Assembly (NCBI GenBank): GCA_039555135.1
Contig: CP114179.1
Location: 1,178,001-1,242,000 of the forward strand
Reading direction: 5' to 3'
Origin: Phycisphaeraceae bacterium D3-23
GTDB taxonomy: Bacteria; Planctomycetota; Phycisphaerae; Phycisphaerales; Phycisphaeraceae
Length of the DNA: 64,000 nt
Shown here: positions 27,703-63,875 of the stretch, piece after piece
How the letters are laid out: the number at the start of each line of letters is the position of its first letter
Position numbering within the stretch: position 1 is the stretch's first letter
Translations under genes and position numbers: made by a program
Notes under the pieces: generated by a model
What the model was told of the DNA's origin: nothing
Seen by the model: only the letters and a program-made list of their open reading frames with translations
Databases searched by the model: none

Positions 27703-27715
27703 GCCGTGTTCCTTT

Positions 27716-42576: not shown

Positions 42577-43038
42577 ATGACGAACGAACAACGCCAGACG
42601 CTGCTTGATCTACTCGCCACCGCCTACAACATGGAGCTAGAGACCGTCTGCAACTACCTGTCACAGTCGATCAACCTTGATGGCTTCCGAGCCAAACACA
42701 TCAAGGACGCTTTAGCGATGGACATCCAGGAAGAGTTGGGGCATGCAACGCTGCTGGCCAAGCGGATCAAAGTGCTGGAAGGAACTGTGCCGGGGAGCCA
42801 ATCGCTGAAGATGACCCAGGACGCGATGCAGCCCAATGGGAATGCGCTGGATGTCGTCGCAGTGATCGAGGGGGTCATCGCGGCAGAAGAAGGTGCCGTC
42901 GAGCATTACCAGAAGATTATTGATGCGGCGGGCGGGATCGACCCGGTGACCGAAGACCTTGCGATCACGATCAAGGGTGATGAAGAAGAACATCGTCGGC
43001 TATTCAAGGGGTTTCTCGCTGAAGCAGAGGCGGGCTGA
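42577..43038 (+). CDS. Ferritin-like protein
   Basis: The 153-residue four-helix protein has carboxylate-bridged metal ligands visible as ELETVCNYL (first Glu), IQEELGHATLLAKRI (ExxH), AAEEGAVEHYQKII (Glu then ExxH-like) and KGDEEEHRRLF. It is similar to bacterioferritin or Dps-like diiron proteins that oxidise and store iron, which also limits Fenton damage. Haem-ligand Met is not obvious. It may be induced with the stress set. The ABC efflux genes follow 90 bases later. Confidence 0.85.
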   Translation: MTNEQRQTLLDLLATAYNMELETVCNYLSQSINLDGFRAKHIKDALAMDIQEELGHATLLAKRIKVLEGTVPGSQSLKMTQDAMQPNGNALDVVAVIEGVIAAEEGAVEHYQKIIDAAGGIDPVTEDLAITIKGDEEEHRRLFKGFLAEAEAG

Positions 43039-43886: not shown

Positions 43887-43890
<4 letters not shown>

Positions 43891-46250: not shown

Positions 46251-46257
46251 TGCACCT

Positions 46258-47463: not shown

Positions 47464-50210
47464 GCATCTTGTGCGATCCTGTTAAGACCCCGCCTCAGCT
47501 GCTTGTGGATTTCGACAGCGCAAAGTACGGTAGTCGCCAACAGCGCCAGCACGGCCCACTGATGCAAAGGAACCGGTTGCGTGTGCAGTAATGCCTGCAT
47601 GGGCGGCCAATACATCGCGAGCAGGTGGATCAGGAACGCAGTCAACACACCCGCCATCAGCACCGGGCTTGCCCACGGCGGGCTCGCGAATGCGGACCGT
47701 GTCTCAGACCGGCAGTTTGCGATGTGTACGTTCTCAAACAAAACCCACAGCAGCAGCACGGCGTTCTGAGCTTGCTCCAGCGGCCAGCCCATATGCAACA
47801 TCCATGCGAATGCACCAAACCCAACACTCCCCATTGTTGCTGCCGACACAACAACGCGGTGAATCATCAGCCGGTTGAAGATCGGTTCTTGGGAAGGACG
47901 CGGTGCCCTGCGGAGGATGCCGGGTTCGCCAGGCTCGAATGCCAACGCGACATCCTGGATCCCGTTGGTCACTAGGTTCAACCAGAGCAGCTGGACCGGC
48001 AGCAGAGGAAGGGGCATCCCGAACAGTACGGACATGACAACTAGAACCATCTCGGCAACACCGGTCGAGACCAGGAGCTGTATGACCTTTCGGATGTTGT
48101 CGTACACCACACGGCCTTCTTCGATACCGGCGACGATGGTGGTGAAGTTGTCGTCGCTGATGATCAGGTCCGCGGCCTGGCGTGCGATATCGGTGCCCCG
48201 GAGCCCCATGGCCACGCCGATATTCGCCTGACGGAGTGCCGGCGCATCGTTCACCCCGTCCCCTGTAACCGCAACAAAATGCCCCAGGCGCTGAGCGGAT
48301 TCCACAATCCGGAGCTTGTGGTGCGGCGTGACCCTGGCAAAGATCGATGCCGTGCCTACCAGCCTGTCCAGTTCATCGTCCCCGGCCGCTTCGACGTCTG
48401 CGCCGAGTACGACACCATGATGAGTATCGCCATTACACATCCCCAAGCTACGACCAATCGCCGCAGCGGTCTCGGGGTGATCCCCGGTGACCATGCACAC
48501 CCTAATCCCTGTTTCTGTGCAGGACCTGATCGCATCCTGAACACCGGGCCGGAGCGGGTCAATCATCCCCACGAAACCGAGCAGCTCAAGATTCTGGGGG
48601 AGTTGACCATCGCTGGCGGTAGACATATTCACCGATGGATGGTGTGCGATCGCAAGGACCCTAAGCCCTTGCCGGGCCATTTCGGCCGTCGTCTCGTTCT
48701 GCCGCGCATGTTCTTGCGGTGACAACGCGCAGGCCCGCAAGATGACCTCTGGCGCTCCCTTCACAAACACCTGCACCGCATGCTCACCGCGATCTCCCAA
48801 TTCAGAGGCACGATGAAACGAGGCCGAGAACTGGCGTTCCGGCTCAAACGGGATCGACGTGACTTGGGGCTGTCGGTCAAGCAACGCTTCGCGAGCGATG
48901 CCCAGCTTCAGTGACATCGACAGCAGGGCAACATCAGTGGGGTCGCCGCGCCATGTCCATTCATCATGCGTTCTGCGGAGTTCACCCTCATTGCATAGCG
49001 CCGCACCTGCCACGAGGGTGTAAAGGCCGGGATGTTTACCCAAGTCGACGGGTGTATTGCCAAAGGTAACTTGCCCATTAGGAGCAAAGCCGACGCCGTC
49101 TACAGAATAGGCAGAGCCATCGGCCTGGCGAATCTCGCTGACCGACATCTCGTTGCATGTCAGGGTCCCGGTCTTGTCTGTAGCGATGTAGGTACAGCTG
49201 CCCAATCCTTCCACCGATCCGAGGCGGCGGACAATGACCCCCTTCCGGGCCATTCGGGTCGTGGCGATCGACAAGGCTACCGTGATACAGACCGGCAGCC
49301 CCTCCGGGATCACACTGACCACAAGGGCCACGGCAAAGATCGCCATCGTGGGAACATCCCGGCCCTGCGCCAGCACGCCCAAGACCGCGATGAGGATCGC
49401 GGCCAGCAAGACCAAAACGCCCAAACGCTGAGTGAACCGACGCAGGCGAGACAGTAGTGGAGGAACACCTCCCTCGATCTGGACAACATCACTTGCCAAC
49501 TGACCGATGCTTGTCGAAGACCCCGTCGCGACAACGATACCTTGAGCCCGGCCCAACGTCACGGCCGTTCCTGCCCAAGCCATATTCTCTTGGTCTGAGG
49601 TCGGTGTATCGGCTTTTCCAAACCACGCAGTGTTCTTGCCGACCGACATCGACTCGCCGGTCAAGAGCGATTCATCGATCTCAAGCCCGCGCGCCTCGAC
49701 AAGCCGGAGGTCCGCCGGGACCCGATCGCCCGATTCCATTAGAACGATGTCGCCCGGGACCAGTTCTTGACAATCTATGTTTCGGACCTCGCCCCCCCGC
49801 GATACAGCGGTTGTCATCCGGAGTAGTTTCTGCAGAGCACGAGAACTGTGCTCGGCCTTCTGCTCTTGGATCGCGCCGATGATCGCATTCAAGACCAGGA
49901 CACCAGCGATAAACCCGGCATCTGAATGATGCCCGATCCAGAGGGACAGCAACGACGCCACGGCGAGGATATAGACCATCGGGCTCATGAACTGCCGGGC
50001 AACAATCTGCCATAATCGCACCGCAGGGGCAGTAGGCAATGCGTTGAGCCCATAACTTTCCTGCCGCCGATTCGCCTCGCGGTCCGAAAGCCCCGCCCGA
50101 TCTGTATCCAACTGCTGCAAGACGCATTCGACACTCAGCGCACACCAAGCGCCGGATTCGTCTTGTCTCGCTTTACTGGAAGTCGTACTTGGGCAAGCGA
50201 TATCATCCAT
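47460..50210 (-). CDS. P2-type cation-transporting ATPase
   Basis: The 916-residue pump has a cation-ATPase N-terminal region and the actuator TGES. M4 carries VIPEGLPVCITVALSIATTR, the phosphorylation site is DKTGTLT, and the hinge is GDGVNDAPAL. M6 reads LLWLNLVTNGIQDVALAFEP. It resembles calcium or related P2A pumps and mycobacterial CtpF. In M6 the Asp used for calcium in SERCA (NLVTD) is Asn, so the ion may differ. Its start overlaps the formate dehydrogenase gene end by eight bases, placing it last in the PEP synthase-Fdh operon. Confidence 0.92.
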   Translation of the reverse strand: MDDIACPSTTSSKARQDESGAWCALSVECVLQQLDTDRAGLSDREANRRQESYGLNALPTAPAVRLWQIVARQFMSPMVYILAVASLLSLWIGHHSDAGFIAGVLVLNAIIGAIQEQKAEHSSRALQKLLRMTTAVSRGGEVRNIDCQELVPGDIVLMESGDRVPADLRLVEARGLEIDESLLTGESMSVGKNTAWFGKADTPTSDQENMAWAGTAVTLGRAQGIVVATGSSTSIGQLASDVVQIEGGVPPLLSRLRRFTQRLGVLVLLAAILIAVLGVLAQGRDVPTMAIFAVALVVSVIPEGLPVCITVALSIATTRMARKGVIVRRLGSVEGLGSCTYIATDKTGTLTCNEMSVSEIRQADGSAYSVDGVGFAPNGQVTFGNTPVDLGKHPGLYTLVAGAALCNEGELRRTHDEWTWRGDPTDVALLSMSLKLGIAREALLDRQPQVTSIPFEPERQFSASFHRASELGDRGEHAVQVFVKGAPEVILRACALSPQEHARQNETTAEMARQGLRVLAIAHHPSVNMSTASDGQLPQNLELLGFVGMIDPLRPGVQDAIRSCTETGIRVCMVTGDHPETAAAIGRSLGMCNGDTHHGVVLGADVEAAGDDELDRLVGTASIFARVTPHHKLRIVESAQRLGHFVAVTGDGVNDAPALRQANIGVAMGLRGTDIARQAADLIISDDNFTTIVAGIEEGRVVYDNIRKVIQLLVSTGVAEMVLVVMSVLFGMPLPLLPVQLLWLNLVTNGIQDVALAFEPGEPGILRRAPRPSQEPIFNRLMIHRVVVSAATMGSVGFGAFAWMLHMGWPLEQAQNAVLLLWVLFENVHIANCRSETRSAFASPPWASPVLMAGVLTAFLIHLLAMYWPPMQALLHTQPVPLHQWAVLALLATTVLCAVEIHKQLRRGLNRIAQDA

Positions 50211-52935
50211 CAGAGCGCACCAGGAATCCAGAATCTTTGGTCGCTACCCCTACAGGGACTAAGGAAACGGCCGTGGCTTTGTAAGCGGGGCAGTTCGATT
50301 CCGGGTCCCGCCAAGGCCCGACGAGACGATTCGTGTGCACCGCAGCGTCATGGAACGACATGAAAACTGTACCGCCTGCGACCTGGCCCGACAGGTGTAC
50401 TTTCACACGGGTCTCCCCCCATCGGCTCGCAACCCGGACGTCATCCCCTTCATGTAAACCAATCGCGTCCGCATCTTGAGGGTGGATGTCAATCCGATCT
50501 GTCGCTGTCAGCTGGATGTTGTCCGTGCGGCGTGTCATCGTCCCGGTGTTGTAATGCTGCAGGACTCGCCCGGTAATCAATGTGAATGGATAGTCATCGC
50601 CAGGCGGCTCCGGGTTCTTCCGATGCTCAACACATGCCAGCTTCCCCTTGCCTCGCAAGAAGCCAGCATGATGCATGGTTGCCGTGCCGGGATGATCGGC
50701 CTCGGGGCAAGGCCATTGAATCCCATCACCCGTCAACCGGGAGAAACTCATACCGCCAAAGAGTGCCGGGGCAGTTGCGGCGATCTCATCCATGATCTCG
50801 CTTGAGGACTCGTGGGACCAGTCTTCTCCCATCTCTCGCGCAACTTCAAGCACGACGCGCCAGTCCGGCCACGCCTCGCCGGGTGGCTGACAGGCCGGGC
50901 GAACACGCTGGACCCGGCGTTCACCATTGGTGTAGGTTCCATCGGACTCCAAACAACCGGCAACGGGGAGGACCAGATGGGCCAGCTTCGCGGTTTCGCA
51001 CAGGAAGAGGTCTTGGACCACTAGGAGGTCGAGCTGCTTCAGCGCATCTACCGCGTGGTTCTGATTCGGCTCGCTGTGCGCAAGGTCTTCGCCCATCACC
51101 CACATACCACGCAACTGCCCGGCGGCGGCCGCATCGAGCATCTCGGGGATCGTGAGCCCTTGCTGAAAAGGAGGAGTTACCCCCCAGAGATTCTGAAGGC
51201 GACGCCGGACTTCCTCGTCTTCCAATGACTGATAGCCGGTGACGAGCGCGGGCATGCAGCCCATATCCGCCGCCCCCTGGACGTTGTTTTGCCCGCGGAG
51301 CGGTAGCATGCCGGCCCCCTCGATCCCGATAGAGCCGGTCAGCATCCCCAGATTGCATAACGCTCGGATGGAGTCGGTTCCCTGCTCCTGCTCCGATAGA
51401 CCCAGGCCATGGACGAACAAGACGGGGCCGCAAGATCCGAGCAGATCCGCAGCCGATTCCACCAACGATCGCTCGACACCCGAAGCCTCGGAAAGGAAAT
51501 CCATCGACCGACCCAGCAGAAAGCGAGCCAGTTCTTCGTATCCCTCACAGCGTTCGTCGAGGTACTTGTGGGCGATGGCATCGGCGCTGATCAGCCTCAG
51601 TGCGATCGCGTTCAGGAGTTCAACGTTCGCCGCCGGCCGCAATGCCAGGTGGACCTGCGCGTACTCGGCCAACTCAATGCTTCTGGGGTCAATGACGATC
51701 AGGGGCGTGCCCGAGCGCACGGCCTGCTTGATGCGTGCCCCGATCACAGGATGCGCCTCGGTAGGATTAGCCCCTACGACAACGATACAGTTAGCCCGTT
51801 CAATATCAGCATACGATGCGCTGGCTGCCCCAGCCCCGGTCGCCTGCCGCAGGCCTAACGCGGTAGAGGCATGACACACCCTTGCGCAGCAGTCGATGTT
51901 GTTCGTGCCAATCACGGCCCGCGCCATCTTCTGCATAAGGTATGCCGACTCGTTTGTCGACCTAGACGAGGCGATCAAGCCGATCGAGTCGGGGCCGGAC
52001 CCGCGACGCAACTCGCCGATGCGTCGGGCCAACCACGCAATCGCATCACGCCAGCTCACCGCCTCCAGCCGGCCGTCGCGCCGCAGGAGAGGTGTTTTCA
52101 GACGATCCGGGTGATGCTGCCAGGCGTGCGCAAACCGCCCCTTGGCACACAAGTGCCCGGCGTTAACTGCGGCATCCTCGATGCCCGTGATGCCCGCGAC
52201 ACGCCCGCCCTGAGCAGTCACAGCCACGCGGCAGCCGACCCCGCAGTAGCCGCAGACCGTGTCGGTTTCGGAGCCACCGCTCGTCGGGCCCGGATGGTCG
52301 ACATCGGTCAAGGCACCAGTCGGGCAGTGATCGACACAAGCCCCGCAGGCGACACATGGGCTCTCCGAGAAGCGGTCGCTGCCACCGACCAAGAGGTGGA
52401 CGTCGCCGCCCCGCCCGCCGATGCCGAAGACGCTCTGCCCCTGAATATCGTCGCAGGCATTCACGCAAAGCCGGCAGGTGATGCATTTCGATCGGTCCAG
52501 CCGGAGATACGTGTGGCTGTCGTCGATAGCTTCCTCACCGGAGGCGTCGCCCTGTGCTGACTCGGGGATCTGGACCCGGTAGCGCTGCATCAGCGCCTGC
52601 AATCGCGACCCTTGGAATGCAAGAGTACTTGTGTCGCATGAAGGATCGAGTTCGCTCACGATGAGGCCAAGGACTTGGCGACGCAGCGCCTCGATCTCCT
52701 CGGTCTTCGTCTGGACCACCATCCCGGGCTTCGCCTGGGTGTGACAAGCGGCTACAGGGCGTGCGGCACCCTGGACCTGTACCAGGCATAGCCGACACCC
52801 GCCCTCCGGGGCGAGCTGATCGTCGTGGCACAGGGTCGGGATATCGACGCCTGCACAGCGCGCCAGGTCGAGAAGGGTCTTCCCTTCTGGGCAAGTGACG
52901 GTCTTGCCATCAACAGTAAGCTGCGCTCCAGCCAT
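50203..52935 (-). CDS. Formate dehydrogenase catalytic subunit, NAD-dependent type
   Basis: The 910-residue molybdo- or tungstoenzyme oxidises formate to CO2 or runs in reverse. The N-terminal [2Fe-2S] domain (CHDDQLAPEGGCRLC) comes first. A His/Cys cluster region and two [4Fe-4S] knots (CITCRLCVNAC, CVACGACVDHC) follow, then the fourth cluster knot (CGYCGVGC). The active-site segment DCCARVCHASTALGL uses Cys, not selenocysteine. The C-terminal molybdopterin dinucleotide domain has ITGRVLQHYNTGTMTRR. The ATG at 52935 follows the diaphorase gene stop by seven bases. With that subunit it would be a cytosolic NAD-linked enzyme. No membrane part or FdhD is visible. Confidence 0.92.
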   Translation of the reverse strand: MAGAQLTVDGKTVTCPEGKTLLDLARCAGVDIPTLCHDDQLAPEGGCRLCLVQVQGAARPVAACHTQAKPGMVVQTKTEEIEALRRQVLGLIVSELDPSCDTSTLAFQGSRLQALMQRYRVQIPESAQGDASGEEAIDDSHTYLRLDRSKCITCRLCVNACDDIQGQSVFGIGGRGGDVHLLVGGSDRFSESPCVACGACVDHCPTGALTDVDHPGPTSGGSETDTVCGYCGVGCRVAVTAQGGRVAGITGIEDAAVNAGHLCAKGRFAHAWQHHPDRLKTPLLRRDGRLEAVSWRDAIAWLARRIGELRRGSGPDSIGLIASSRSTNESAYLMQKMARAVIGTNNIDCCARVCHASTALGLRQATGAGAASASYADIERANCIVVVGANPTEAHPVIGARIKQAVRSGTPLIVIDPRSIELAEYAQVHLALRPAANVELLNAIALRLISADAIAHKYLDERCEGYEELARFLLGRSMDFLSEASGVERSLVESAADLLGSCGPVLFVHGLGLSEQEQGTDSIRALCNLGMLTGSIGIEGAGMLPLRGQNNVQGAADMGCMPALVTGYQSLEDEEVRRRLQNLWGVTPPFQQGLTIPEMLDAAAAGQLRGMWVMGEDLAHSEPNQNHAVDALKQLDLLVVQDLFLCETAKLAHLVLPVAGCLESDGTYTNGERRVQRVRPACQPPGEAWPDWRVVLEVAREMGEDWSHESSSEIMDEIAATAPALFGGMSFSRLTGDGIQWPCPEADHPGTATMHHAGFLRGKGKLACVEHRKNPEPPGDDYPFTLITGRVLQHYNTGTMTRRTDNIQLTATDRIDIHPQDADAIGLHEGDDVRVASRWGETRVKVHLSGQVAGGTVFMSFHDAAVHTNRLVGPWRDPESNCPAYKATAVSLVPVGVATKDSGFLVRSDG

Positions 52936-52942
52936 CAGCGCC

Positions 52943-54559
52943 TCATTTCTGCTCGCAAAGAATCTGGTCACCAAACAGTTCCAACAGATCCCGGAGCGGC
53001 CCGGGGGTCTCGTGCCCAAAGGGGCAGAGCGAAGCCGCGGCGACTACGCCGAGTGTCGCCTCAATCTCGTCACGCCGATACGCCCCGGCCTGCACCATCT
53101 CCATCAGTCGCTTAGACCCCGCCCTGCAGGGCACACACTTCCCGCAGGACTCGTCCGCCATGAACTGGATGAGGTTCTCGAACAGGGCACGGCAGTCGGT
53201 GTCTTCGAGGATTGCCACGACACCCCCATGGCCCAGCGAGATACTTCGGCGGCGCATCTCGTCATAGCAGATCGGTACATCCCAGCGATCGGGCGTCAGC
53301 AACGTCCCCATCGGTCCCCCCAACAGGACAGCCAGAACCTGTTTCGCCCCGGCCCCACTCCCGGCCTCTTCGATGACCTGGGCCAAGGGAGTCCCGAACT
53401 CCACCTCGACCATGCCCGGCCTGGAGAAACCACTATTCAGGCAGATCACTTTGTTGCCGCTGGACTCCTGAGTCCCCAAGGCCCGGTAGGCCTCGGCCCC
53501 GTGCTGGATGATCCACGGGATATTGACCAGCGTTTCCACGTTGTTCACGATGGTCGGCCGGCCCCACAGGCCAGACTCCGCGGGATATGGGGGGCGTAGC
53601 CGTACCTCGCCACGCTCGCCCTCGATCGCGTTGATCAACGCAGTTTCCTCGCCGCAGACATACCCACCTTGGCCCCGCATCACCGTGACGTTGAACTCCA
53701 AGTCATGGCCCAGGATCCCACGCCCGAGCAGCCGGGCCCGACGCGCCTCTTCCACCGCCTCGCACATAACTTCGTAGGCCCGGGGGTACTCCCACCGCAC
53801 AAAAACCACGCCCTGCTCGGCCCCGACGGCATACCCACACAACGCCATCCCTTCCAGGATCGCGTGGGGGTCGTGCTCCATCAGGACACGGTCAACGTAC
53901 GAGCCGGGGTCTCCTTCATCCCCGTTCGCGATGACATATCGAACATCGGATGGCGTCTTTGCGCACACCTTCCACTTCGCACCGGTGGGATAACCCGCCC
54001 CTCCACGGCCCCGCTCTCCTGATGCCTCGACCTCGGCAAGCACCTGTACCTGGCTTCGGTGCGAAACGGCATCTTCAAGCGCCTGATACACGCCCGCGGC
54101 ACGCGCATCCGAAAGAGACTGCGCCGGCCCACCCGTCAGGCGCTGGGTGACAATCGGTTGGCGTGTCGTAGACCGAATCTCGGGCAGGGAGTCTCCGATC
54201 GGCCGCCTATCGAGCGTGACGATGTTGCCATCGGGCTGCATCGCCGCCGGAGAACGATCGCAGTAGCCCAGGCAGTACACGTTCTGACAGTTGCTGGATG
54301 ACGTGTCCAGCGCACTAGCTCCGGCCAGACGGCAACTCATCCCGTTACAGACCAAAGTCGAGGCCGGGTCCACACGCAAGGCCGCATAGAAATCGCCGAT
54401 CCCTCGCAGACGTGCCTCTGGTATCCCCAGACGGGGCGACAACTGCCGATACGCCCGGGCGTCCAAGCATCCTCCCGAGGCGACATGCTGGCCCAAGACA
54501 GGTAACGCCAGATTGCTGCCGTCAGCTCGAAGACAATTGCCGGAAGGTGGGCCCTTCAT
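52943..54559 (-). CDS. Formate dehydrogenase diaphorase subunit (NuoE-NuoF fusion)
   Basis: The 538-residue subunit hands electrons from the catalytic subunit to NAD. Residues about 60-130 contain a thioredoxin-fold [2Fe-2S] site (VCNGMSCR then NVYCLGYCDRSP). From about 160 comes the NuoF-like part with FMN/NADH loop GRGGAGYPTGAKW, NGDEGDPG and the [4Fe-4S] motif ESCGKCVPCRAG near the C-terminus. The fused NuoE domain replaces a separate gamma subunit. The start overlaps the PEP synthase stop by four bases, so coupled translation is likely. Confidence 0.92.
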   Translation of the reverse strand: MKGPPSGNCLRADGSNLALPVLGQHVASGGCLDARAYRQLSPRLGIPEARLRGIGDFYAALRVDPASTLVCNGMSCRLAGASALDTSSSNCQNVYCLGYCDRSPAAMQPDGNIVTLDRRPIGDSLPEIRSTTRQPIVTQRLTGGPAQSLSDARAAGVYQALEDAVSHRSQVQVLAEVEASGERGRGGAGYPTGAKWKVCAKTPSDVRYVIANGDEGDPGSYVDRVLMEHDPHAILEGMALCGYAVGAEQGVVFVRWEYPRAYEVMCEAVEEARRARLLGRGILGHDLEFNVTVMRGQGGYVCGEETALINAIEGERGEVRLRPPYPAESGLWGRPTIVNNVETLVNIPWIIQHGAEAYRALGTQESSGNKVICLNSGFSRPGMVEVEFGTPLAQVIEEAGSGAGAKQVLAVLLGGPMGTLLTPDRWDVPICYDEMRRRSISLGHGGVVAILEDTDCRALFENLIQFMADESCGKCVPCRAGSKRLMEMVQAGAYRRDEIEATLGVVAAASLCPFGHETPGPLRDLLELFGDQILCEQK

Positions 54560-56952
54560 ACCGTCACCTTGCGCTCGGCTTCAGCCTGCGCCACGGCCTC
54601 ACGTACCGCCAACACACTGTCCGGGTTCACCGAGATCGAATCGATCCCCGCTTCGACAAGGAACCGGGCGAACTCGGGGTGGTCACTCGGGGCCTGACCG
54701 CACAAACCCACAGGGACGCCGTGTTCGTGCGCTGTGTCAATCAGCTGCCGAATAGACCGGCGGACGGCCGCATGTCGATCATCAAACAGGTACGTCAACT
54801 CCTCGGAGTCTCTGTCGATCCCCAGCGTCAGCTGTGTCAGGTCGTTAGACCCGATCGAGAAGCCATCGAACAGCTCTGCAAACTCATCGGCCAAGACAAT
54901 GTTCGACGGGATTTCAGCCATCACATATACCTGGAACCCACCGTCGCCTCGCCGCAGCCCGTGGTGCTCCAACTCCTCCAGGACGCGTTGCCCTTCTTCC
55001 GGGGTCCGGCAGAACGGCACCATCGCGATGATGTTGTTCAGCCCCATACGTTTGCGTGCCATCAGGAGTGCACGACATTCGAGTGCGAACCCTTCCCGGT
55101 AACCCTCGCTGTAGTACCGGCTGGCTCCGCGCCAGCCCAACATCGGGTTAGATTCCGACGGCTCGAACTGCCGCCCGCCAATCAGGTTGGCGTACTCGTT
55201 AGTCTTAAAGTCACTAAGACGGACGATGACCGGCTGTGGATAGCGGGAGGCGGCGATCGACGCGATCCCCATCGCCAGCTTCTCGACGAAGTAGGACTCC
55301 CGTGATTCATAAGCTTCTGTTGCGCGGTCGATCAGGTAGCGTGCTTCCACCGATTCCACTTCGTCGTAGTGGATGAGAGCCATCGGGTGAACCCGGATCG
55401 TGTCGTTGATAATGAACTCCATCCGTGCCAGACCGATCCCGTCCACGGGCAGGTTCCACCAGCGGAATGCGGCCTCGGGGCTGGCGATGTTCAGCATCAC
55501 CTTGGTCTGTGTCGCTGGCGCGTCGCTCCAATCCTGTTCCTCCACGGAATGGGCCACGCTCCCCCGATACACATAGCCGGCATCTCCCTGTGTACAGTCG
55601 ATCGTCACCTCCGCCCCGTCGGGGACCTGCCGTGTTGCACTCCCCGCGCCGACGACGGCGGGCAGCCCCAGTTCTCGGCACACGATCGCCGCGTGGCTCG
55701 TCCGCCCGCCTCGATCGGTCACGATGCCTGCGGCACGACGCATCAACGGCACCCAGTCCGGATCGGTCTGGTCAGTGACCAGAATGTCGCCCGGCTTGAA
55801 GAGGTCCGACTGAGAGACCGAATGGATCAGGGTTACAGGCCCCACCGCAACCGCAGTACCGATCGCCTGCCCGGTGACCAGTGGACGGCTCTTCTCCTGC
55901 ATCCGGTAGACCTTCATCGAGGTGCCGCGGCGCTGCGACTGGACCGTCTCCGGACGGGCCTGCACGATGTAGAATTCGCCTGTGAGCCCGTCCTTCGCCC
56001 ACTCGATATCCATCGGGCGTCCATACTCCACCTCAATGAGGCACGCCTGCCGCGCCAGGGTGATGACCTCATGCTCTTCGAGACACCACTGGCCGCGTTG
56101 CTTCTCGTCATTGTCGATCGCCTGTGTCCCGCCATCGCTGCCATAGACCAGCCGTTGCGTCTTGCTGCCAAGCGTTCGGCTGATGACCGGATGAAACGTA
56201 TGGTCATCCAGCATGGGCTTGAACAGCCGCCACTGGTCGCCCGTCACAGACCCCTTGACCAACGATTCGCCAAGCCCCCACGTCCCTTCGATCAGCACGG
56301 CGTCTGGGAAACCCGTCTCACAGTCGAGCGTGAACATCACGCCGGCACAAGCCAGGTCGCTCCGAACCATCAGTTGAACGCCAGCAGATAAAGCGACATC
56401 CATGTCTCGAAATCCATGGCGGTGACGATAAGCAATCGCACGGTCCGTAAAGAGCGAAACAAAACAGTCCTGAATCGCGCGCAAAACCGCGGGCAACCCC
56501 ACGACATTGAGGAAGGATTCCTGCTGCCCCGCGAAGCTTGCCTCCGGCAGATCTTCGGCTGTCGCGCTGCTCCGGACGGCCACACCGGGGGCCTCGGCTT
56601 GGGCCTCCGAGGACAACTTTGTATACGCACGGCCAATCGCCTCCGCGAAATCCGGAGGCAGTATGGCGCCCCGAAGCATGCCCCGGATCGCCTCGCCGAC
56701 CTGGCTCAGGTTCCCCAGGTCCTCGTCGAGCTGGTCTAGTTGGGCGTGCATTCCATCTGGGAGATCATTCGCTTCCAGGAAGGCCCGATAGGCCGATGCC
56801 GTGGTTGCGAATCCATGGGGAACCTGGATGCCCAGCGGCCGCATCCTACCGTACATCTGGCCCAGCGAGGCGTTTTTCCCGCCGACAGCCGCGATCTCAC
56901 CCAGACTGATCTCGTCAAACCACCTTAGATACGGGTCTGCCTTAGTGTTCAT
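54556..56952 (-). CDS. ppsA: Phosphoenolpyruvate synthase
   Basis: The 798-residue enzyme converts pyruvate and ATP to PEP, AMP and phosphate, the entry to gluconeogenesis. The N-terminal ATP-grasp domain begins GEIAAVGGKNASLGQMYGRM and includes GVAVRSSATAEDLPEASFAGQ. The central swivelling His is in GGRTSHAAIVCRELGLPAVVG. The C-terminal PEP domain has GSNDLTQLTLGIDRDSE and the catalytic Cys loop GLCGQAPSDHPE. It leads the operon with formate dehydrogenase and the cation pump. PEP synthase is often induced in anaerobic survival. The 193 bases upstream are shared with the divergent sensor kinase. Confidence 0.95.
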   Translation of the reverse strand: MNTKADPYLRWFDEISLGEIAAVGGKNASLGQMYGRMRPLGIQVPHGFATTASAYRAFLEANDLPDGMHAQLDQLDEDLGNLSQVGEAIRGMLRGAILPPDFAEAIGRAYTKLSSEAQAEAPGVAVRSSATAEDLPEASFAGQQESFLNVVGLPAVLRAIQDCFVSLFTDRAIAYRHRHGFRDMDVALSAGVQLMVRSDLACAGVMFTLDCETGFPDAVLIEGTWGLGESLVKGSVTGDQWRLFKPMLDDHTFHPVISRTLGSKTQRLVYGSDGGTQAIDNDEKQRGQWCLEEHEVITLARQACLIEVEYGRPMDIEWAKDGLTGEFYIVQARPETVQSQRRGTSMKVYRMQEKSRPLVTGQAIGTAVAVGPVTLIHSVSQSDLFKPGDILVTDQTDPDWVPLMRRAAGIVTDRGGRTSHAAIVCRELGLPAVVGAGSATRQVPDGAEVTIDCTQGDAGYVYRGSVAHSVEEQDWSDAPATQTKVMLNIASPEAAFRWWNLPVDGIGLARMEFIINDTIRVHPMALIHYDEVESVEARYLIDRATEAYESRESYFVEKLAMGIASIAASRYPQPVIVRLSDFKTNEYANLIGGRQFEPSESNPMLGWRGASRYYSEGYREGFALECRALLMARKRMGLNNIIAMVPFCRTPEEGQRVLEELEHHGLRRGDGGFQVYVMAEIPSNIVLADEFAELFDGFSIGSNDLTQLTLGIDRDSEELTYLFDDRHAAVRRSIRQLIDTAHEHGVPVGLCGQAPSDHPEFARFLVEAGIDSISVNPDSVLAVREAVAQAEAERKVTV

Positions 56953-57144: not shown

Positions 57145-58566
57145 ATGACCCCCGACCAGGCCATCCCGCAGAGTTCTGCTCAGCTAGCGCAAGGCGTTGC
57201 CGCCCCGCTCTGGACCCGTGAGCTTGCGTCAGGCCGGTTCCTTTTCTTTAACGATGCGTACCGGTCGCTCTGGCAACACCCCCCCGAATCATGGGCCGGT
57301 GGATATACCGACTGGCTTGCAACGATCCACGCACACGACCGAGACCTTGTCCTTGAAACCTATCAACGCGTGGCGGAGTTGGGCAACTACGAACTGGAGT
57401 ACCACATCCTTCTCCCCGACGAATCGATCCGTGTCGTCAAGGAGTGCGGGGGCTTGCTGGATGGCAATAAAAGCATGATTGCAGGGGCAACACTTGGCGT
57501 CTCTCGCCCTGAATCTGCTAGCTGTCACCAGTGGGATCAGAAGCCGTTTTTTCTGGCGATGATGGAAGCCGTGGCGGATGCGGTCGTCGTGATCAATCAC
57601 AGCGGTAGAATCATCCAAACCAATAAAGGAGCCTTGGACGTATTCGGATACTCCGAAGACGAACTGCTCGGGCACAACGTCAAGCTGCTCATGCCCGAGC
57701 CGGACCAGAGCCGGCACGACCAGTACATCAAGCGGTACCTCCACACGGGCAAGGCCAAGATCATCGGCACCGGGCGTACCACCTACGCGGTACGGAAGGA
57801 CGGGGAGGTGTTCCCCATCGAGTTGTCGATCGCGGAGATCGATCACCTCCAGTGCTTTGTCGGCGTCATCCACGATATCTCGAAACGCCGAGCGTTAGAA
57901 AAACGGCAAGCAGACGCGAAACATCAGGAAAGACAAGCCATCGCACAGGAAATCCATGATGGCTTGGGTGGTCAGCTGACCGGTGTGGAGCTGCTGACGA
58001 AAGCGCTCGCGAAGCGTCTGGCATCGAAAGACTCTTCTGCAACGCACGAACTGAAAGTGATCTCGACCCATCTCCAGGAAGCGCACCGCCAGCTCCGACA
58101 GATCTCCCGGGGGATCATGCCCGTTGAGGGGTCGCCACAAGGGCTAGAGGGCGCTCTCCAGAAGTTTGCCCAAAACTCATCAAGAATTTCTCCGGCCTCA
58201 GTGGTGTTGCGCTGCGACCCACAGTTGCCGATCACCGATTCAACGATGGCGAACACGCTGTTCCGGATCGCCCAGGAGGCGACGACGAATGCCATCAAGC
58301 ATGCTTCAGCTAAGCACATCTTGATCCAGCTCTGTAGCGGCCCCGACACCCTGACGCTTGTGGTCGAAGACGACGGCGTCGGGATTCAGGAAAAACCCGA
58401 TGGACATGACGGCCTGGGCCTGCACACTATGAAGCAGCGGGCAGGCCTGATCGGAGCGAATCTGATCCTCGGCAGGCGTGAGGGGGGAGGCACTACCGTG
58501 AAGTGCCTCGTCTATCTACCGAGCAATGATGATGGAACCCAAAGAGAGAGCAGAAAAAACGGATAA
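57145..58566 (+). CDS. PAS-PAS histidine kinase, FixL-like haem oxygen sensor
   Basis: The 473-residue soluble kinase has two PAS domains (about 20-120 and 135-255), a HisKA_3 helix pair with phospho-acceptor in AQEIHDGLGGQLTGVELL and a HATPase domain (FRIAQEATTNAIKHASA, VVEDDGVGI, GLGLHTMKQRAGLIGA). In PAS 2, MPEPDQSRHDQYIKRYLHTG followed by IIGTGR matches FixL. His191 corresponds to the haem ligand and Arg211 to the oxygen-contacting Arg, 20 residues apart as in FixL. It is therefore probably a haem oxygen sensor. It overlaps the first response regulator gene and is divergent from the pps-fdh operon. Confidence 0.85.
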   Translation: MTPDQAIPQSSAQLAQGVAAPLWTRELASGRFLFFNDAYRSLWQHPPESWAGGYTDWLATIHAHDRDLVLETYQRVAELGNYELEYHILLPDESIRVVKECGGLLDGNKSMIAGATLGVSRPESASCHQWDQKPFFLAMMEAVADAVVVINHSGRIIQTNKGALDVFGYSEDELLGHNVKLLMPEPDQSRHDQYIKRYLHTGKAKIIGTGRTTYAVRKDGEVFPIELSIAEIDHLQCFVGVIHDISKRRALEKRQADAKHQERQAIAQEIHDGLGGQLTGVELLTKALAKRLASKDSSATHELKVISTHLQEAHRQLRQISRGIMPVEGSPQGLEGALQKFAQNSSRISPASVVLRCDPQLPITDSTMANTLFRIAQEATTNAIKHASAKHILIQLCSGPDTLTLVVEDDGVGIQEKPDGHDGLGLHTMKQRAGLIGANLILGRREGGGTTVKCLVYLPSNDDGTQRESRKNG

Positions 58567-58981
58567 ACGACGCGTCCTGCTGGTCGAAGACCATCCAATC
58601 GTCCGGCAGGGGCTGCGGCAAATCATCGAGCTGGAAGACGACCTCGAAGTCTGCGGCGAGGAAGCAACGACCCATGACGCAATCCGTGCAATCGAAGCGC
58701 TCCATCCCGACCTCGTGCTTTTAGATCTGGCCCTACGGGGGAGCAGTGGGACCGATGTGTTGAAGTACATCCAGGAGCACTGGATCAGTGTCCGCACCGT
58801 CGTCATCTCAAGCAACCCGCCTGAGATTTGGGCAGAAGAAGTCATCCGGCATGGAGCGCTCGGATATATCAGCAAGGACGAGGCGGTAGATCATGTGATC
58901 CACGCGATACGTTCGGCTCTCTCAGGCAACATCTATACGCCAGACCAGAAGCCGGCAGATTCCGGGCACTGGTTCGGATAA
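58526..58981 (+). CDS. Stand-alone receiver-domain response regulator
   Basis: The 151-residue protein is a lone receiver domain: acidic pocket VLLVEDHPIV, phosphorylated Asp in DLVLLDLALRG, conserved Ser in VVISSN (Thr position) and Lys in GYISKDE. There is no DNA-binding part, only a short polar tail. It overlaps the kinase 3' end by 41 bases, so it is its natural partner. Such proteins act as phosphate sinks, relays or protein-protein regulators, and it may tune phosphate flow to the NarL-type regulator that follows. Confidence 0.88.
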   Translation: MMMEPKERAEKTDKRRVLLVEDHPIVRQGLRQIIELEDDLEVCGEEATTHDAIRAIEALHPDLVLLDLALRGSSGTDVLKYIQEHWISVRTVVISSNPPEIWAEEVIRHGALGYISKDEAVDHVIHAIRSALSGNIYTPDQKPADSGHWFG

Positions 58982-59014: not shown

Positions 59015-59713
59015 ATGGCACGCGCACGCGCAAGAAAGCCAGGACAGTCCGACGCACCGCCAGAGTTGCGGGTCTTTCTGGTAGATGACCACCCCGTCAT
59101 CTGCTTGGGGATCACCCAGCTGCTGAACGAACAGCCGGGCATGCGCGTCTGTGGCCAGGCCAATGACACCGCGACCGCACGGAGAGAGATACTCAAGCAA
59201 AAACCTGATGTCGCCGTCATCGACATCGCGCTGGGTGAAGGCAACGGCCTAGAACTCCTGAAGGAACTCCAGGCACAGGGCTCAAAGACCGCCGTGCTCA
59301 TCGTCTCGTCTTTCGACGAGACGGTCTACGCCCAGCGCTGCCTCGCGGCGGGTGCTTCGGGCTATCTCAACAAGGCCAACGCGCCCGACCAGATCGTCGA
59401 TGCGATCACCCAGGTCGCAGCTGGCGGCATAGCTCTCAGCCAAGCGATGGCTCAGCGCGCCCTAAAACAATCCGCCCGCGGGCAGCGCAAGACCACCAAC
59501 AATATCTCGCCGATCGATTCGCTCACAGACCGCGAGTTGCAGGTGCTTGAACTTCTGGGCAATGGCCATACATCGCAAGAGATCGCTGACAAGCTGTTTG
59601 TGAGCCCCAAGACCGTCGAGACACACAGAACCCACCTCAAAGAGAAACTCGGGGTTGCCAGTGTCCCGGAACTGGTCAGCTATGCGGCCAAGTGGGTCGT
59701 CCATCAGGCCTAG
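59015..59713 (+). CDS. NarL/FixJ-type response regulator
   Basis: The 232-residue regulator has a receiver domain (about 20-140; FLVDDHPVIC, Asp in DVAVIDIALG, Ser pair in VLIVSSFDE, Lys in GYLNKANAPD). A LuxR-type helix-turn-helix follows (about 168-230; LTDRELQVLELLGNGHTSQE, SPKTVETHRTHLKEKL). It should bind DNA when phosphorylated by the upstream haem-type kinase and control the island's stress genes. A basic start (MARARARKPG) precedes the receiver. It lies 33 bases after the first regulator and just upstream of the RNR gene. Confidence 0.92.
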   Translation: MARARARKPGQSDAPPELRVFLVDDHPVICLGITQLLNEQPGMRVCGQANDTATARREILKQKPDVAVIDIALGEGNGLELLKELQAQGSKTAVLIVSSFDETVYAQRCLAAGASGYLNKANAPDQIVDAITQVAAGGIALSQAMAQRALKQSARGQRKTTNNISPIDSLTDRELQVLELLGNGHTSQEIADKLFVSPKTVETHRTHLKEKLGVASVPELVSYAAKWVVHQA

Positions 59714-59741
59714 ATCCCGTGAGTTGGTAGCACAAGGACAT

Positions 59742-61466
59742 ATGATGCAGGCGGCAGAAAACAACACGCCGACCCTCACCGCCGATGCGATCGCCGATCA
59801 GATTCTGAAGGCACGCATACTTCGCAAAACGAGTACGGGGCTGGAATCCCCCGACGAGATGTACCGGCGAGTAGCACACCATGTCGCGGGTGCCGAAAAC
59901 AACTACGCATCCGCTTCCGAGGCAGAGTGTGTGGAAGAACGGTTCCTGCACCTGATGAGTACAAACGCGTTTCTGCCCAACTCCCCCACCCTCCGTAACG
60001 CCGGGACGGAGGAAGGTGCTCTAGGGGCCTGTTATGTGCTCCCGGTCGGCAGCCAGCCCCACCAACTCGACGACACGATCGCATTGGCAAAAGACATTTA
60101 CCACGCCGGGGCGGGCACCGGGTTCTCGTTCTCGGGAATCAGAGATCCGCAAGGCCAAGGCCCATATGACGCAGTCGGCGCGGTTGCACAGAAGATTGAT
60201 GATGCCGCGAAAGAGGAAGACCAGGCATCGCCACGGCCGGTTGCAAACATGGGCACGCTCCGCATCGACCACCCCGAGATCAGGTCATTCATCGCCATCA
60301 AGCAGAAGGCCGGTGCCTTGTCTCATTTTAACTTATCCGTGGGCGTCACCGATGCGTTTATGAGCGCCGCGTTGGCAGGCAGAAAGATCCCGCTTCGCTA
60401 TGACGACAGCGATGCGACCGTCGGTGAGGTCTCGGCACACCGGCTCCTGGACGAGATTGCTCAGACCGCCTGGCTTACGGGCGAGCCCGGCATGCTTTTT
60501 CTCGACGCGATTCAACGCGCCAATCCACTGCCGGGCCTGGGGGACATCGTAGCGACCAACCCCTGTGGAGAGGTCCCCCTTTACCCCTTCGAGGCCTGCA
60601 ATCTCGGCTCGATCAACCTGGCCGCGTGCCTGCAAGACGCCGGACAAGGTCAATATATTATCGATTGGAACCGCCTCGCGGAGATCACCGCGGACAGTGT
60701 CCGGTTCCTGGATGATGTGATCGATGTGACGCGGTGGGTTGATCCCCGTGTGGAAGAGGTCGCTCTACGTGGGCGGAAGATCGGCCTCGGGGTGATGGGG
60801 TTCGCGGATATGCTGCTCCGGCTGCGTGTCCCCTACAGCTCACGAATGGCGACGACGATCGCCGACGAGGTGATGAGTTTCATCCGTGAACACGCACGTG
60901 CCGAATCGATGAAACTCGCCAGCGAGCGAGGCGTGTTCCCGGCCTGGGGGATGAGTGTGTTCGCAGCCGACAACACCCCCATGCGGCATGCGGCATGCAC
61001 CGCGATTGCTCCCACCGGAACCATCAGCAGAATCGCCGGTGTTTCTCCGGGGATCGAGCCGATCGGCTCGATGGCCAGCGCATACCCACATTTCCTGGGG
61101 CATGGCCCCATCACAACAGTCAACCCGACGCTGATACGTCTGTCACAGGATTTACATTTCGATCTTGATGCAACGCTGCACTACTACGCCGAGAACCATT
61201 CGCTCAGGCAGGCCCCATCGTTGTCTGAAGAACTCCAACACCTGCTCATGACTGCGACCGAGATTACACCCGAGCAGCACATCGGTATCCAATGCGCCTT
61301 CCAGAAGCACACGGACAGTGCCGTATCGAAGACAATCGCACTGAACCCGAAAACATGCGCAAGGCAGGTAGAAGCAGCCTTCCAACTGGCCTGGCGGGTC
61401 GGCCTCAAGGGCATCACGCTCTACCGAATGGGAAGCCGACCTGACCAGCCGATCATCGCGGCCTAG
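59742..61466 (+). CDS. Adenosylcobalamin-dependent (class II) ribonucleotide reductase
   Basis: This 574-residue enzyme makes deoxyribonucleotides without oxygen. Motifs: TLRNAG and GACYVLPV (first redox Cys), NLSVGVTDAFM, the radical-site NPCGEVPLYPFEACNLGSIN, and a second phosphate loop PTGTISRIAGVSPGIEP. The end, GITLYRMGSRPDQPIIAA, stops where related enzymes usually add a C-terminal Cys pair for re-reduction, so the tail is missing. ATG 59742 has AAGGA upstream. No ATP-cone domain is present. It parallels mycobacterial nrdZ, a DosR-regulon gene. Confidence 0.9.
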   Translation: MMQAAENNTPTLTADAIADQILKARILRKTSTGLESPDEMYRRVAHHVAGAENNYASASEAECVEERFLHLMSTNAFLPNSPTLRNAGTEEGALGACYVLPVGSQPHQLDDTIALAKDIYHAGAGTGFSFSGIRDPQGQGPYDAVGAVAQKIDDAAKEEDQASPRPVANMGTLRIDHPEIRSFIAIKQKAGALSHFNLSVGVTDAFMSAALAGRKIPLRYDDSDATVGEVSAHRLLDEIAQTAWLTGEPGMLFLDAIQRANPLPGLGDIVATNPCGEVPLYPFEACNLGSINLAACLQDAGQGQYIIDWNRLAEITADSVRFLDDVIDVTRWVDPRVEEVALRGRKIGLGVMGFADMLLRLRVPYSSRMATTIADEVMSFIREHARAESMKLASERGVFPAWGMSVFAADNTPMRHAACTAIAPTGTISRIAGVSPGIEPIGSMASAYPHFLGHGPITTVNPTLIRLSQDLHFDLDATLHYYAENHSLRQAPSLSEELQHLLMTATEITPEQHIGIQCAFQKHTDSAVSKTIALNPKTCARQVEAAFQLAWRVGLKGITLYRMGSRPDQPIIAA

Positions 61467-61522
61467 TGCTGGCGATCCATATCGGGAGTTACCCGAGACA
61501 AGACACTCTACTCGGTTTGCCG

Positions 61523-62533
61523 ATGAAGGCCATGCAACTACAACAGGTCTCCGCGATCACAGATGGCAGCCGGCCGCTGGTTCCTGTTGAGGTTCCCATG
61601 CCACCTTTGCCGAACGACAGTCTTCTCCTGCGCGTCTTGGCTTGTGGGGTCTGCCATACCGAACTCGACATTATCGAGGGCCGAACGCCTCCACCGAAGC
61701 TACCCGTCATCCCGGGGCATGAAGTAGTCGGATCGGTCGAAGAAATAGGCAAGAATACCGCCGGCTACACGATTGGCGATCAGGTCGGCGTCGGGTGGAT
61801 CTTCCGCTCCAGCGGCGGTGCCCACGAGAACCTGAGCCCAGAGTTTTGCGCCACAGGCCGGGATGCAGACGGCGGCTACGCCGAGTACATGAGCGTGCCC
61901 GCAGCGTATGTTGTACCGATTCCCGCCTCTCTCACGGCAACAGAAGCCGCTCCGCTGCTGTGCGCCGGAGCGATTGGCTACCGAGCACTACAACTATGCA
62001 ATCTAGATGATGGAGATCGGCTTGGTCTCATGGGGTTTGGTGCCTCCGGCCGTCTGACACTTCAAGCCGCTAGATACCTGTACCCGCATTCCGAAGTCGA
62101 TGTATTCGCGCGTGACGAGGCGGATCAGGAAGATGCCATCGGTATGGGAGCCACCTGGGCAGGTGGCGTAGATGAACGTCCCCCATCACCATGCCAGACG
62201 ATTATCGATACGACACCCGCCTGGACGCCTGTGCTCCATGCACTTAAACACCTCGCGCCTGGAGGGCGCTTAGTCATCAATGCCATACGGAAAGAGGATG
62301 GCGACCGGGCATTCCTGGGCGGGCTCGATTACACGGAACACCTCTGGATGGAGAAAGAGGTCAAGACCGTGGCGAACATCACGCATCACGACATCTCCCA
62401 GTTCATTCCCATCGCAGCGGCAGCCGACATCCGGCCCTCGGTCGAAGTCCTGCCACTGAAGCGGGCCAACGATGCACTCTGCCATCTCAAACGAGGTGGC
62501 AACAGGAACGCATTTGTGCTTCTCCCCGCATAG
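61523..62533 (+). CDS. Zinc-type alcohol dehydrogenase without structural zinc site
   Basis: The 336-residue MDR-family dehydrogenase resembles class III-like bacterial Adh proteins. Catalytic zinc ligands are present: CGVCHTELD (Cys), GHEVVG (His) and ALLC-like LLCAGAIGY (Cys). The nucleotide fold is LGLMGFGASGRLTLQAARYL. The lobe that normally holds four structural-zinc cysteines reads WIFRSSGGAHENLSPEFCATG, leaving a single Cys. It may reduce aldehydes or oxidise alcohols when respiration stops. The ATG at 61523 fits the family; a GTG at 61466 overlaps the RNR stop. Confidence 0.88.
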   Translation: MKAMQLQQVSAITDGSRPLVPVEVPMPPLPNDSLLLRVLACGVCHTELDIIEGRTPPPKLPVIPGHEVVGSVEEIGKNTAGYTIGDQVGVGWIFRSSGGAHENLSPEFCATGRDADGGYAEYMSVPAAYVVPIPASLTATEAAPLLCAGAIGYRALQLCNLDDGDRLGLMGFGASGRLTLQAARYLYPHSEVDVFARDEADQEDAIGMGATWAGGVDERPPSPCQTIIDTTPAWTPVLHALKHLAPGGRLVINAIRKEDGDRAFLGGLDYTEHLWMEKEVKTVANITHHDISQFIPIAAAADIRPSVEVLPLKRANDALCHLKRGGNRNAFVLLPA

Positions 62534-62799
62534 CAGGACGTCGTGCGAGCACACGTCGGCACCCCGAGCAGAGAACTGCAACTGGCCGAAACATAACTCA
62601 CCTACGAGCTATCACTTGCCAGCGTTTCTGCGAAGCGGATCGATAAGGAAAATCCGGACCTCTTGACCATCAGATTTCCTGATTGGCAGTTCCTCATTTC
62701 TCAACCATAGTGCAGTTATGGCGATGCTGACACCAATACGACAGCAGAATGGCATGAGTAGTTGCCTGGGGGAATACAAGACAGAAACTGGTGTGTGAA

Positions 62800-63189
62800 A
62801 TGCATATAGCGATCGAAAACCTTGACATGAGCGAGAGCGTCGTCACGCTGCACCTCAACGGAAGTTTGACGCGTGAGGATTATCAGCGGCTCACCCCGGA
62901 GGTCCTTCACCTGGTTGAGGGGCGAGGCAGCCTCCGCCTCCTGGTCTTCATCGACGGCCTTGATGATATGGCCCCCGCCTCAACCTGGCATCGGCTCATC
63001 CTCAGACTCTGGGACAACTCCGACATCGAACGTGTCGGCATCGTGACTGGCAAGGGCTGTGAACGAGCTTCTGACTGGCTGCGAAATGTATTCGGGCATA
63101 CCGAGTTCCAAGCCTTTAGCCCACAAGACACCGAAAAGGCCCAGGGGTGGGTCCTTGATTCCTTGCCCGAAAGAGAGCAGTTGCCATGA
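62800..63189 (+). CDS. STAS/SpoIIAA-like protein
   Basis: The 129-residue protein is of the SpoIIAA-like DUF3478 type. It shows HLNGSLTREDYQRLTPEVLHLVEG, a strand RLLVFIDGLDD, and WDNSDIERVGIVTGKG leading to DWLRNVF and FSPQDTEKAQGWV. These domains bind small lipophilic or nucleotide ligands and often sit among stress genes. It has no phosphorylatable DS motif as in SpoIIAA proper. Its stop overlaps the next start by four bases (ATGA). A GTG at 62791 is an alternative start. The 265 bases upstream hold no gene. Confidence 0.82.
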   Translation: MHIAIENLDMSESVVTLHLNGSLTREDYQRLTPEVLHLVEGRGSLRLLVFIDGLDDMAPASTWHRLILRLWDNSDIERVGIVTGKGCERASDWLRNVFGHTEFQAFSPQDTEKAQGWVLDSLPEREQLP

Positions 63190-63875
63190 CAAGATCAATG
63201 ATCCCGTTCCGGAATCGGTCTGCAGCTGGAAAACTCCTAGGCGAAGCGCTGCACCCTTTACGCGACTTGGAAGATGTGGTCGTCCTAGCACTCCCCAGAG
63301 GAGGGGTGCCGGTTGCTTATGAAGTCGCGTCCGCATTGTCTGCCCCGCTGGATGTAATCGTCGTCCGAAAGGTCAGGCATCCCGACCAGCATCAACGCGC
63401 CCTCGGTGCGTTGGCAGGACGCGGCGAAGGTGTCTTCGAGCATCGGGAAGAGCAGGCAGACCCCGTGAGCAAACAGGCTTTCGATGCCGGTCGGCTTAAG
63501 GAAATGGAAGAACTCGAACGCCTCGTTACCTCATATCAATCGAAACGCGGGCGCGTATCACTCGAAGAGAAACTCGTCATCATCGTTGACGATGGCATTG
63601 CCACGGGTGCAACTATGCTCGCCGCGCTACGTGCAGTTCGTCGCGAAGGCCCCAGAGGTGTCGTCGTTGCCGTCCCGGTCGCTGCGGGCGAATCCCTGGA
63701 CATCATTGATGCCTGTGCAGACCAAGTCACGTGTTTGCACCGCCCGAAACACTTCGTCGCGGTAAGCCAGTTCTATATCGACTACTCGCAGATTCCTGAC
63801 GTTGAAGTCCGACGGCTACTGGACAGTGCACGTCGATCTTATCACGCCGCTCATCATCAGCCATCTTCGTCATGA
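63186..63875 (+). CDS. Phosphoribosyltransferase-family stress protein
   Basis: The 229-residue protein has the type I PRT fold: VLALPRGGVPVAYEVASALS, the insert region with VRKVRHPDQHQ, and the PRPP loop KLVIIVDDGIATGATMLAAL. It resembles the PRT domain of DosR-regulon Rv0571c and bacterial stress-island homologues, where it is fused to a dienelactone hydrolase-like domain. Here the DLH-like gene is separate (40744-41574). The nucleotide substrate is unknown; it may act on a purine or pyrimidine base or in regulation. It is translationally coupled to the STAS gene and followed by a USP gene. Confidence 0.88.
   Translation: MTRSMIPFRNRSAAGKLLGEALHPLRDLEDVVVLALPRGGVPVAYEVASALSAPLDVIVVRKVRHPDQHQRALGALAGRGEGVFEHREEQADPVSKQAFDAGRLKEMEELERLVTSYQSKRGRVSLEEKLVIIVDDGIATGATMLAALRAVRREGPRGVVVAVPVAAGESLDIIDACADQVTCLHRPKHFVAVSQFYIDYSQIPDVEVRRLLDSARRSYHAAHHQPSSS

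Follow-up and report, generated by a model that had tools for sequence, protein, structure and literature searches.

A predicted haem-PAS sensor kinase of FixL type within a probable low-oxygen survival island in a planctomycete

In the 64,000-nucleotide stretch of DNA from Phycisphaeraceae bacterium D3-23 that was analysed here (the window), a sensor histidine kinase carries a PAS domain with the FixL pair of haem-binding and oxygen-sensing residues, and its gene adjoins genes for stress proteins and anaerobic metabolism. That this domain is a haem-based oxygen sensor is in our view a well-founded prediction, made for a member of a large and ordinary PAS cluster. The fuller explanation, in which an oxygen-responsive haem-PAS kinase would switch on an island of low-oxygen survival genes, we hold as a whole with moderate confidence. 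Judged by titles and abstract openings, none of the listed papers on FixL, oxygen sensing or low oxygen in Planctomycetes concerns such a system.

According to this explanation the second PAS domain (PAS2) would bind haem b via His191, and Arg211 would hold the bound O2; both ligands are suggested by the residues present. With oxygen bound the kinase would be held off, a polarity that we borrow from FixL because of the homology. As oxygen falls, the NarL-type transmitter would autophosphorylate at His271 and pass its phosphate to the adjacent NarL-type regulator, and a single-domain receiver encoded between the two would compete for this phosphate or drain it. The putative regulon would comprise Hsp20, universal stress proteins (Usp), a P-type ATPase, an alcohol dehydrogenase, PEP synthase, formate dehydrogenase, a formate transporter and a class II ribonucleotide reductase. 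In such a programme the chaperone and Usp would serve persistence, the alcohol dehydrogenase and formate enzymes redox balance, and PEP synthase carbon flow, with a ribonucleotide reductase that is independent of oxygen.

The kinase gene (57145..58566, + strand) is an intact open reading frame from an ATG at 57145 to the stop at 58566, encoding 473 amino acids (500 from an alternative in-frame TTG start at 57064). Pfam models recognize in its product PAS_3 (residues 33-106), PAS (137-245), HisKA_3 (262-326) and HATPase_c (370-455), with no match to a GAF domain at E 0.001. The FixL-like PAS2, at about residues 136-253 (57550..57903, + strand), is supported by sequence, alignment, an AlphaFold model and fold matches. 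The predicted phospho-accepting residue of the HisKA_3 domain is His271 in the motif EIHDG (57955..57957, + strand), a role that we presume from what is generally known of this family.

An initial annotation of this DNA had claimed that PAS2 holds a histidine and an arginine 20 residues apart, as FixL does. This is true: His191 (57715..57717, + strand) and Arg211 (57775..57777, + strand) both fall in RHDQYIKRYLHTGKAKIIGTGR, at a spacing of exactly 20, and align without gaps with BjFixL His200 and Arg220, which we take to be the proximal haem ligand and the distal, oxygen-sensing residue (the BjFixL residue numbers and roles are assumed here and below). A phmmer search of the PDB placed FixL first (8js5_A, E 1.1e-25; heme domain 1dp6_A, E 1.2e-22), with no gap across the His-Arg stretch. 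Tyr194, Arg197, Ile206, Leu227 and Ile229 also coincide with BjFixL Tyr203, Arg206, Ile215, Leu236 and Ile238, the last three being the distal pocket hydrophobics of BjFixL. Other pocket positions differ, Ile218, Asp212 and His214 of BjFixL being replaced by Thr209, Lys203 and Lys205, and Arg197 is itself changed in the related kinases of genomes G392, G426 and G394. For Sinorhizobium FixL, the consulted part of PMC10765370 describes a salt bridge between R200 and a haem propionate and assigns I209 to the distal pocket; these two residues correspond to Arg197 and Ile206 of the window kinase if, as we infer, the two FixL numberings are offset by six.

The pair is well conserved among the related domains collected. 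In a 21-sequence PAS alignment, the histidine and arginine are among 14 invariant columns; both occur in 22 of 35 PAS stretches found in the collected loci outside the window. Every stretch that is 38% or more identical to the PAS domain of the window has the pair, and the other 13, at 37.4% or less, do not have both. The two residues occur together in 43 of the 46 rows of the PAS tree set, the pair being broken in L015 (Lys, Arg), Pandoraea (His, Gly) and L119 (His, Ile). Because similarity to the window domain was the criterion by which all these sets were assembled, they overstate conservation in the family at large. The pair is also kept in all five kinases found with the order kinase, receiver, regulator or pieces of it (the window, G392, G394, G426 and G427). 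The sections of Xing et al. 2023 that were available report this histidine in more than 9,700 sequences, or 60% of the FixL/DosP cluster (cluster 3), with 40% lacking it (PMC10468136). The His-Arg pair thus marks membership of the cluster and implies no rarity.

Compared with rhizobial FixL (Bradyrhizobium, Sinorhizobium), the window kinase is alike in its PAS domain with the histidine ligand, the distal arginine and three distal hydrophobics, in a tandem PAS region (residues 17-255 align with BjFixL 23-265) and, presumably, in a low-oxygen role. On the other hand, FixL has a HisKA transmitter and FixJ as its partner, whereas the window kinase has HisKA_3 and a regulator scoring best with MctR and NarL. 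Its score with the FixL family model NF041777 (sens_FixL_Rhizob) is 128.1 bits against a cut-off of 850, and the PAS tree groups the FixL rows in a supported clade from which the window domain is excluded, with a bootstrap that had not fully converged. Judged by transmitter, regulator and model score, the kinase is on sequence grounds not FixL proper, and since the histidine is also common in its cluster, the original claim is less special than it was stated to be.

A comparison of the predicted structure with the FixL PAS domain, suggested as a check in the initial annotation, bore out the likeness of fold. The AlphaFold model of PAS2, built on a four-sequence alignment, has a pLDDT of 79 and a pTM of 0.69, and within the core its confidence is lowest (pLDDT block means 65-77) around the helix on the haem side and the strand after it. 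Among the best 50 of 1112 Foldseek rows, ranks 1-18 are FixL and ranks 19-25 comprise five DosP and two FixL entries, and VIA-align gives Z 16.0-17.7 for the FixL rows; the predicted fold is FixL-like, with FixL its best PDB match. His191 (model residue 67) lies in a predicted helix, 63-77, in keeping with the helix F-alpha position of the histidine in the FixL/DosP cluster. A model of the full-length kinase from one sequence (pLDDT 40) was set aside. The haem PAS domain of E. coli DosP belongs to the same published cluster and shares the histidine position and the arginine spacing; it differs in its output, a phosphodiesterase rather than a kinase, and in its distal methionine (presumably Met95), at whose column the window domain has Thr209. 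A DosP-type methionine ligand is therefore not expected, and a FixL-like five-coordinate state is.

The same model alignment gave Z 15.9 for 3mfx, a PAS structure not listed as haem-bound, so that the fold alone is no proof of haem. PAS2 might accordingly have the FixL fold without haem, as a dimerization domain or a PAS domain for another ligand, with sensing left to PAS1 or to partner proteins. The 40% of the published cluster without the histidine would fit this alternative, as would the lack of a match to the ferrochelatase family PF00762 in the near-complete genome of the organism (8 of 14 control genomes were matched). However, PAS2 has the histidine, the arginine and all three distal hydrophobics, and the kinases of this module keep the pair across genera although they do not keep the N-terminal PAS domain (the G392 protein shows none, and that of G394 has too few residues for one). 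The genome also has two genes for haem-copper oxidase subunit I, which implies haem despite the missing PF00762 match. We consider a haem-free PAS2 unlikely. As an observation in its own right, a genome with haem-copper oxidases and no PF00762 match may use an alternative route to haem.

Another reading accepts the haem and changes the signal: PAS2 would respond to CO, to NO or to a change in the redox state of its iron, and the arginine would only tune the site. FixL structures with NO and with CO bound exist (by their PDB titles), the replacement of Ile218 by Thr209 alters the distal side, and in M. tuberculosis NO and CO, as well as hypoxia, elicit a response of the DosR regulon in the account given in part of PMC4428469. 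Yet the retention of the arginine with the histidine in nearly all of the tree rows is consistent with a role in holding bound O2, and the neighbouring genes fit low oxygen. This reading seems to us quite improbable, and we retain oxygen as the predicted ligand.

The kinase gene is followed by those for the single-domain receiver and the regulator. The former (58526..58981, + strand; Pfam) overlaps the kinase gene by 41 bp and ends in HWFG; the latter (59015..59713, + strand) is a NarL/LuxR-type response regulator with receiver and GerE domains, by domain and family models. Its best models are MctR (139.6 bits) and NarL (128.6 bits), neither at cut-off, and its FixJ score is 76.4 against 255; we pair it with the kinase by adjacency. 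The window receiver and the short receivers of G392, G394, G426 and G427 have the phosphorylation residues and all end in Trp-Phe-Gly (58526-58981 of the window, L075:8564-9019(-), L125, L126 and L127), preceded by His in four of them and by Asp in one (HWFG, DWFG). The tail is not a feature of every short receiver, as those encoded close to such kinases in G396 (41.8% identity) and G430 (27.9%) are without it. That it serves for docking is a guess on our part; a literature search for WFG found no paper with that term.

Divergently from the kinase gene is encoded PEP synthase (PpsA; 54556..56952, - strand; TIGR01418, 1057 bits, above cut-off), and on the same strand follow a NuoF-like flavoprotein (52943..54559; TIGR01959, 370.3, below the cut-off of 558.65), a formate dehydrogenase alpha subunit (50203..53019; TIGR01591, 735.2 bits against a cut-off of 666.25) and a P-type cation ATPase (47460..50210; general P-type model above cut-off), which is of the Ca type by its best match (TIGR01522, 589.4, below 798.3). 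Because of its NuoF-like neighbour, the formate dehydrogenase is probably NAD-linked. Farther left, all on the + strand, lie Hsp20/alpha-crystallin (39556..40008), a Usp (40208..40675) and a ferritin-like protein of the Dps or bacterioferritin type (42577..43038). On the other side, also on the + strand, the regulator gene is followed by those for a class II (adenosylcobalamin-dependent) ribonucleotide reductase (59655..61466; TIGR02504, 470.5 bits, cut-off 399.95), whose listed TTG start overlaps the regulator gene, a later start being likely, a Zn-type alcohol dehydrogenase family protein (61466..62533; ADH_N above cut-off, TIGR02822 at 231.7 below its cut-off of 283.5), a SpoIIAA-like protein (62791..63189; Pfam) and a phosphoribosyltransferase-domain protein (63186..63875; Pfam). 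Beyond the right end of the window come a second Usp, a formate/nitrite transporter and ion transporters. By eye, an unlisted reading at about 41620-42250 contains HCSSANRVG, resembling the active-site loop of protein tyrosine phosphatases.

The G+C content of the window is 0.57-0.65 from 26 kb onward, against 0.64-0.68 before, and two tyrosine recombinases of the phage integrase family (26404..28591, - strand) stand at the left end of the lower-G+C stretch, which together fit a genomic island. The recombinase genes at 26404-28591 likely mark the island boundary. The block is probably a mobile low-oxygen survival island, and it may help the cell to survive the loss of oxygen. A separate echo of the region comes from another phylum: in a Polyangia MAG (L006:1961-10348) a FixL-type PAS kinase lies about 4 kb from an ABC-FtsX-HlyD trio that is 66, 36 and 41% identical to the trio at 43129-47463 of the window.

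The initial annotation had further placed the sensor in a planctomycete island with adjoining anaerobic genes. The host part stands, since PSD1, a family typical of planctomycetes, has 12 matches in the genome of the organism and none in the 14 control genomes; so does the link to anaerobic and stress genes, which recurs, though only in some relatives. Within the genus, elsewhere in the family and in one distant family, kinases with both residues adjoin Hsp20, Usp, alcohol dehydrogenase, P-type ATPase or PEP synthase. For example, 9.3 kb of G392 (same genus) holds an ATPase (37% identity), alcohol dehydrogenase (59%), Usp, receiver, kinase (45%), regulator and Hsp20 (52%), with a D-2-hydroxyacid dehydrogenase past Hsp20. 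In G426 (same family, other genus), an 11.7 kb block runs from a PEP synthase cut by the contig end through Usp, alcohol dehydrogenase, a second Usp-like gene and Hsp20 to the kinase, receiver, regulator and a formate transporter; a second contig has most of a PEP synthase, again at a contig end, and an ATPase of 58% identity. Two short contigs of G394 (same genus, 70% complete) carry ATPase pieces, Usp, regulator, Hsp20, kinase and receiver, and in the distant family (f72) stretches of 23-29 kb in G381, G205 and G121, which are close kin and not three independent cases, hold PEP synthase, ATPase, alcohol dehydrogenase, regulator, kinase and Hsp20.

Counted over the 12 genomes searched, with the window included, an alcohol dehydrogenase of at least 56% identity occurs in seven and lies in the kinase cluster in six of these (that of G333 is on a separate contig), a PEP synthase of at least 49% occurs in six and is at the cluster in five (in G426 by the contig end; that of G373 is some 3 Mb from the kinase), and an ATPase of at least 55% occurs in five, four of these ATPases lying in the cluster and the fifth, that of G426, next to the partial PEP synthase. 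At these identities there is one alcohol dehydrogenase and one PEP synthase per genome. Two congeners, G342 (98% complete) and G393 (89%), have no counterpart of the island: their kinases match only weakly, at 29% and 23% identity, neither genome gave an ATPase or PEP synthase match at E 1e-50, and no alcohol dehydrogenase exceeded 34%.

Nor is the island universal among the other relatives. In G427 the kinase, receiver and regulator are accompanied by a PEP-synthase-like neighbour at 30% identity and, about 15 kb away, by an ATPase at 41%; Hsp20, Usp and alcohol dehydrogenase are unmatched in the 20 kb searched. The stretches searched in G220, G058 and G377 show the kinase-regulator pair and no such metabolic gene (G058 has Usp matches about 9 kb from the pair; the G377 pair is at a contig end). 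Hsp20 is the sole clear island match close to the pair in G333, G373 and G069, and in G257 Hsp20 and a PAS kinase are all that was seen. In G274, G003 and G107 there is the pair only, and the PAS domains are without the histidine.

Several observations were made beside this survey. By eye, from first residues, HypF, HypC and HypD-like hydrogenase maturation genes lie near the G427 module (L125:13049-17952(+)), and the G381 kinase relative at L038:9066-10934(-) appears to have an N-terminal receiver-like domain before two PAS domains. The conjugative plasmid pPV15 of Pandoraea vervacti (L071) encodes a PAS kinase with the same transmitter type by alignment, three Usp, an alcohol dehydrogenase and a response regulator; its PAS domain keeps the histidine and has Gly for Arg, and we rejected it as the same module and take it as an analogue. 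A Sphingobium plasmid match was likewise rejected: by eye it is a FixL-like kinase whose transmitter differs, and copper genes lie next to it. Viral contigs gave 147 pattern matches and no relative.

No operator common to the island was recognized. DevR, OsdR, FixK, FNR and CRP patterns gave nothing in the island promoters of the window; a relaxed DevR pattern has two places in the window (27531 and 53380), both intragenic, the OsdR pattern has none, and a FixK-like match at 57353 falls within the kinase gene. The commonest dyad in 12 island promoters, CAGT-N4-ACTG (three promoters; equalled in 5 of 200 shuffles), was rejected, as two of the three promoters share one site, which leaves two island places against 17 in the genome. 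That the kinase senses oxygen without controlling genes that merely co-travel on one mobile element, as the integrases, the lower G+C, the lack of a shared operator and the pairs without an island would allow, we regard as very unlikely, because the same small set surrounds the kinase in genus, family and distant family in differing orders, which hitch-hiking alone would not predict.

Comparable gene sets are known under other sensors. The kinases of DosRS/DevRS (Mycobacterium) and OsdKR (Streptomyces) are defined by a haem GAF domain, of which no match was found in the window kinase, and no DevR/OsdR-type box was found in the window island promoters; both systems are nonetheless alike in pairing a HisKA_3 kinase with a NarL-type regulator and in their linked Usp and heat-shock genes (Usp and Hsp20 are linked in the window, G392 and G426, and not in all relatives). 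In the portions of the sources used, the class II ribonucleotide reductase NrdZ is in the DosR regulon of M. tuberculosis (PMC4428469), and predicted OsdR targets include Usp, alcohol dehydrogenase and pyruvate phosphate dikinase (PMC5069765). The lxa locus of Burkholderia cenocepacia is described, in excerpts of PMC6127331, PMC9733578 and PMC9104464, as some 50 genes that are physically clustered and whose levels increase when oxygen is low; it is similar in its Usp, alpha-crystallin and metabolic genes and differs in that the regulator suggested for it is of CRP/FNR type and lies outside the block. NmpRSTU of Myxococcus xanthus has a haem-dependent kinase whose pathway, by the part of PMC11841059 consulted, controls a Usp gene and oxygen-use genes; there, unlike here, the sensor is a protoglobin and the regulator NtrC-type. 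In Bradyrhizobium, microoxia induces Usp, Hsp20, AdhP and PEP synthase genes or proteins, with FixLJ-FixK2 as a main control, in the extract of PMC6515984 used; AdhP, Hsp20 and some Usp carry a plus sign there, in a column whose heading lies outside that extract and which we read as marking FixK2 targets, whereas PEP synthase carries none. By analogy, the window island reads as comparable to the DosR, OsdKR and lxa systems, but with a FixL-type sensor.

Overall, the recurring, probably mobile island and the receiver tail conserved in the closest relatives probably make the sensor more interesting. We tentatively raise the possibility, doubtful as it still appears, of a DosR-like dormancy or low-oxygen programme in Planctomycetes: a self-contained mobile island with a FixL-type haem PAS on a NarL-type kinase, in which docking of the Trp-Phe-Gly end of the receiver to kinase or regulator would set the threshold. 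If this were true, a single widespread low-oxygen gene set would accept either a haem PAS or a haem GAF domain as its front end. The main explanation, if right, would place gene kinds known from the low-oxygen responses of Actinobacteria and Proteobacteria under a different haem sensor, making the evolution of such responses testable by sensor swaps. It would also provide a single testable switch for low-oxygen survival in Planctomycetes.
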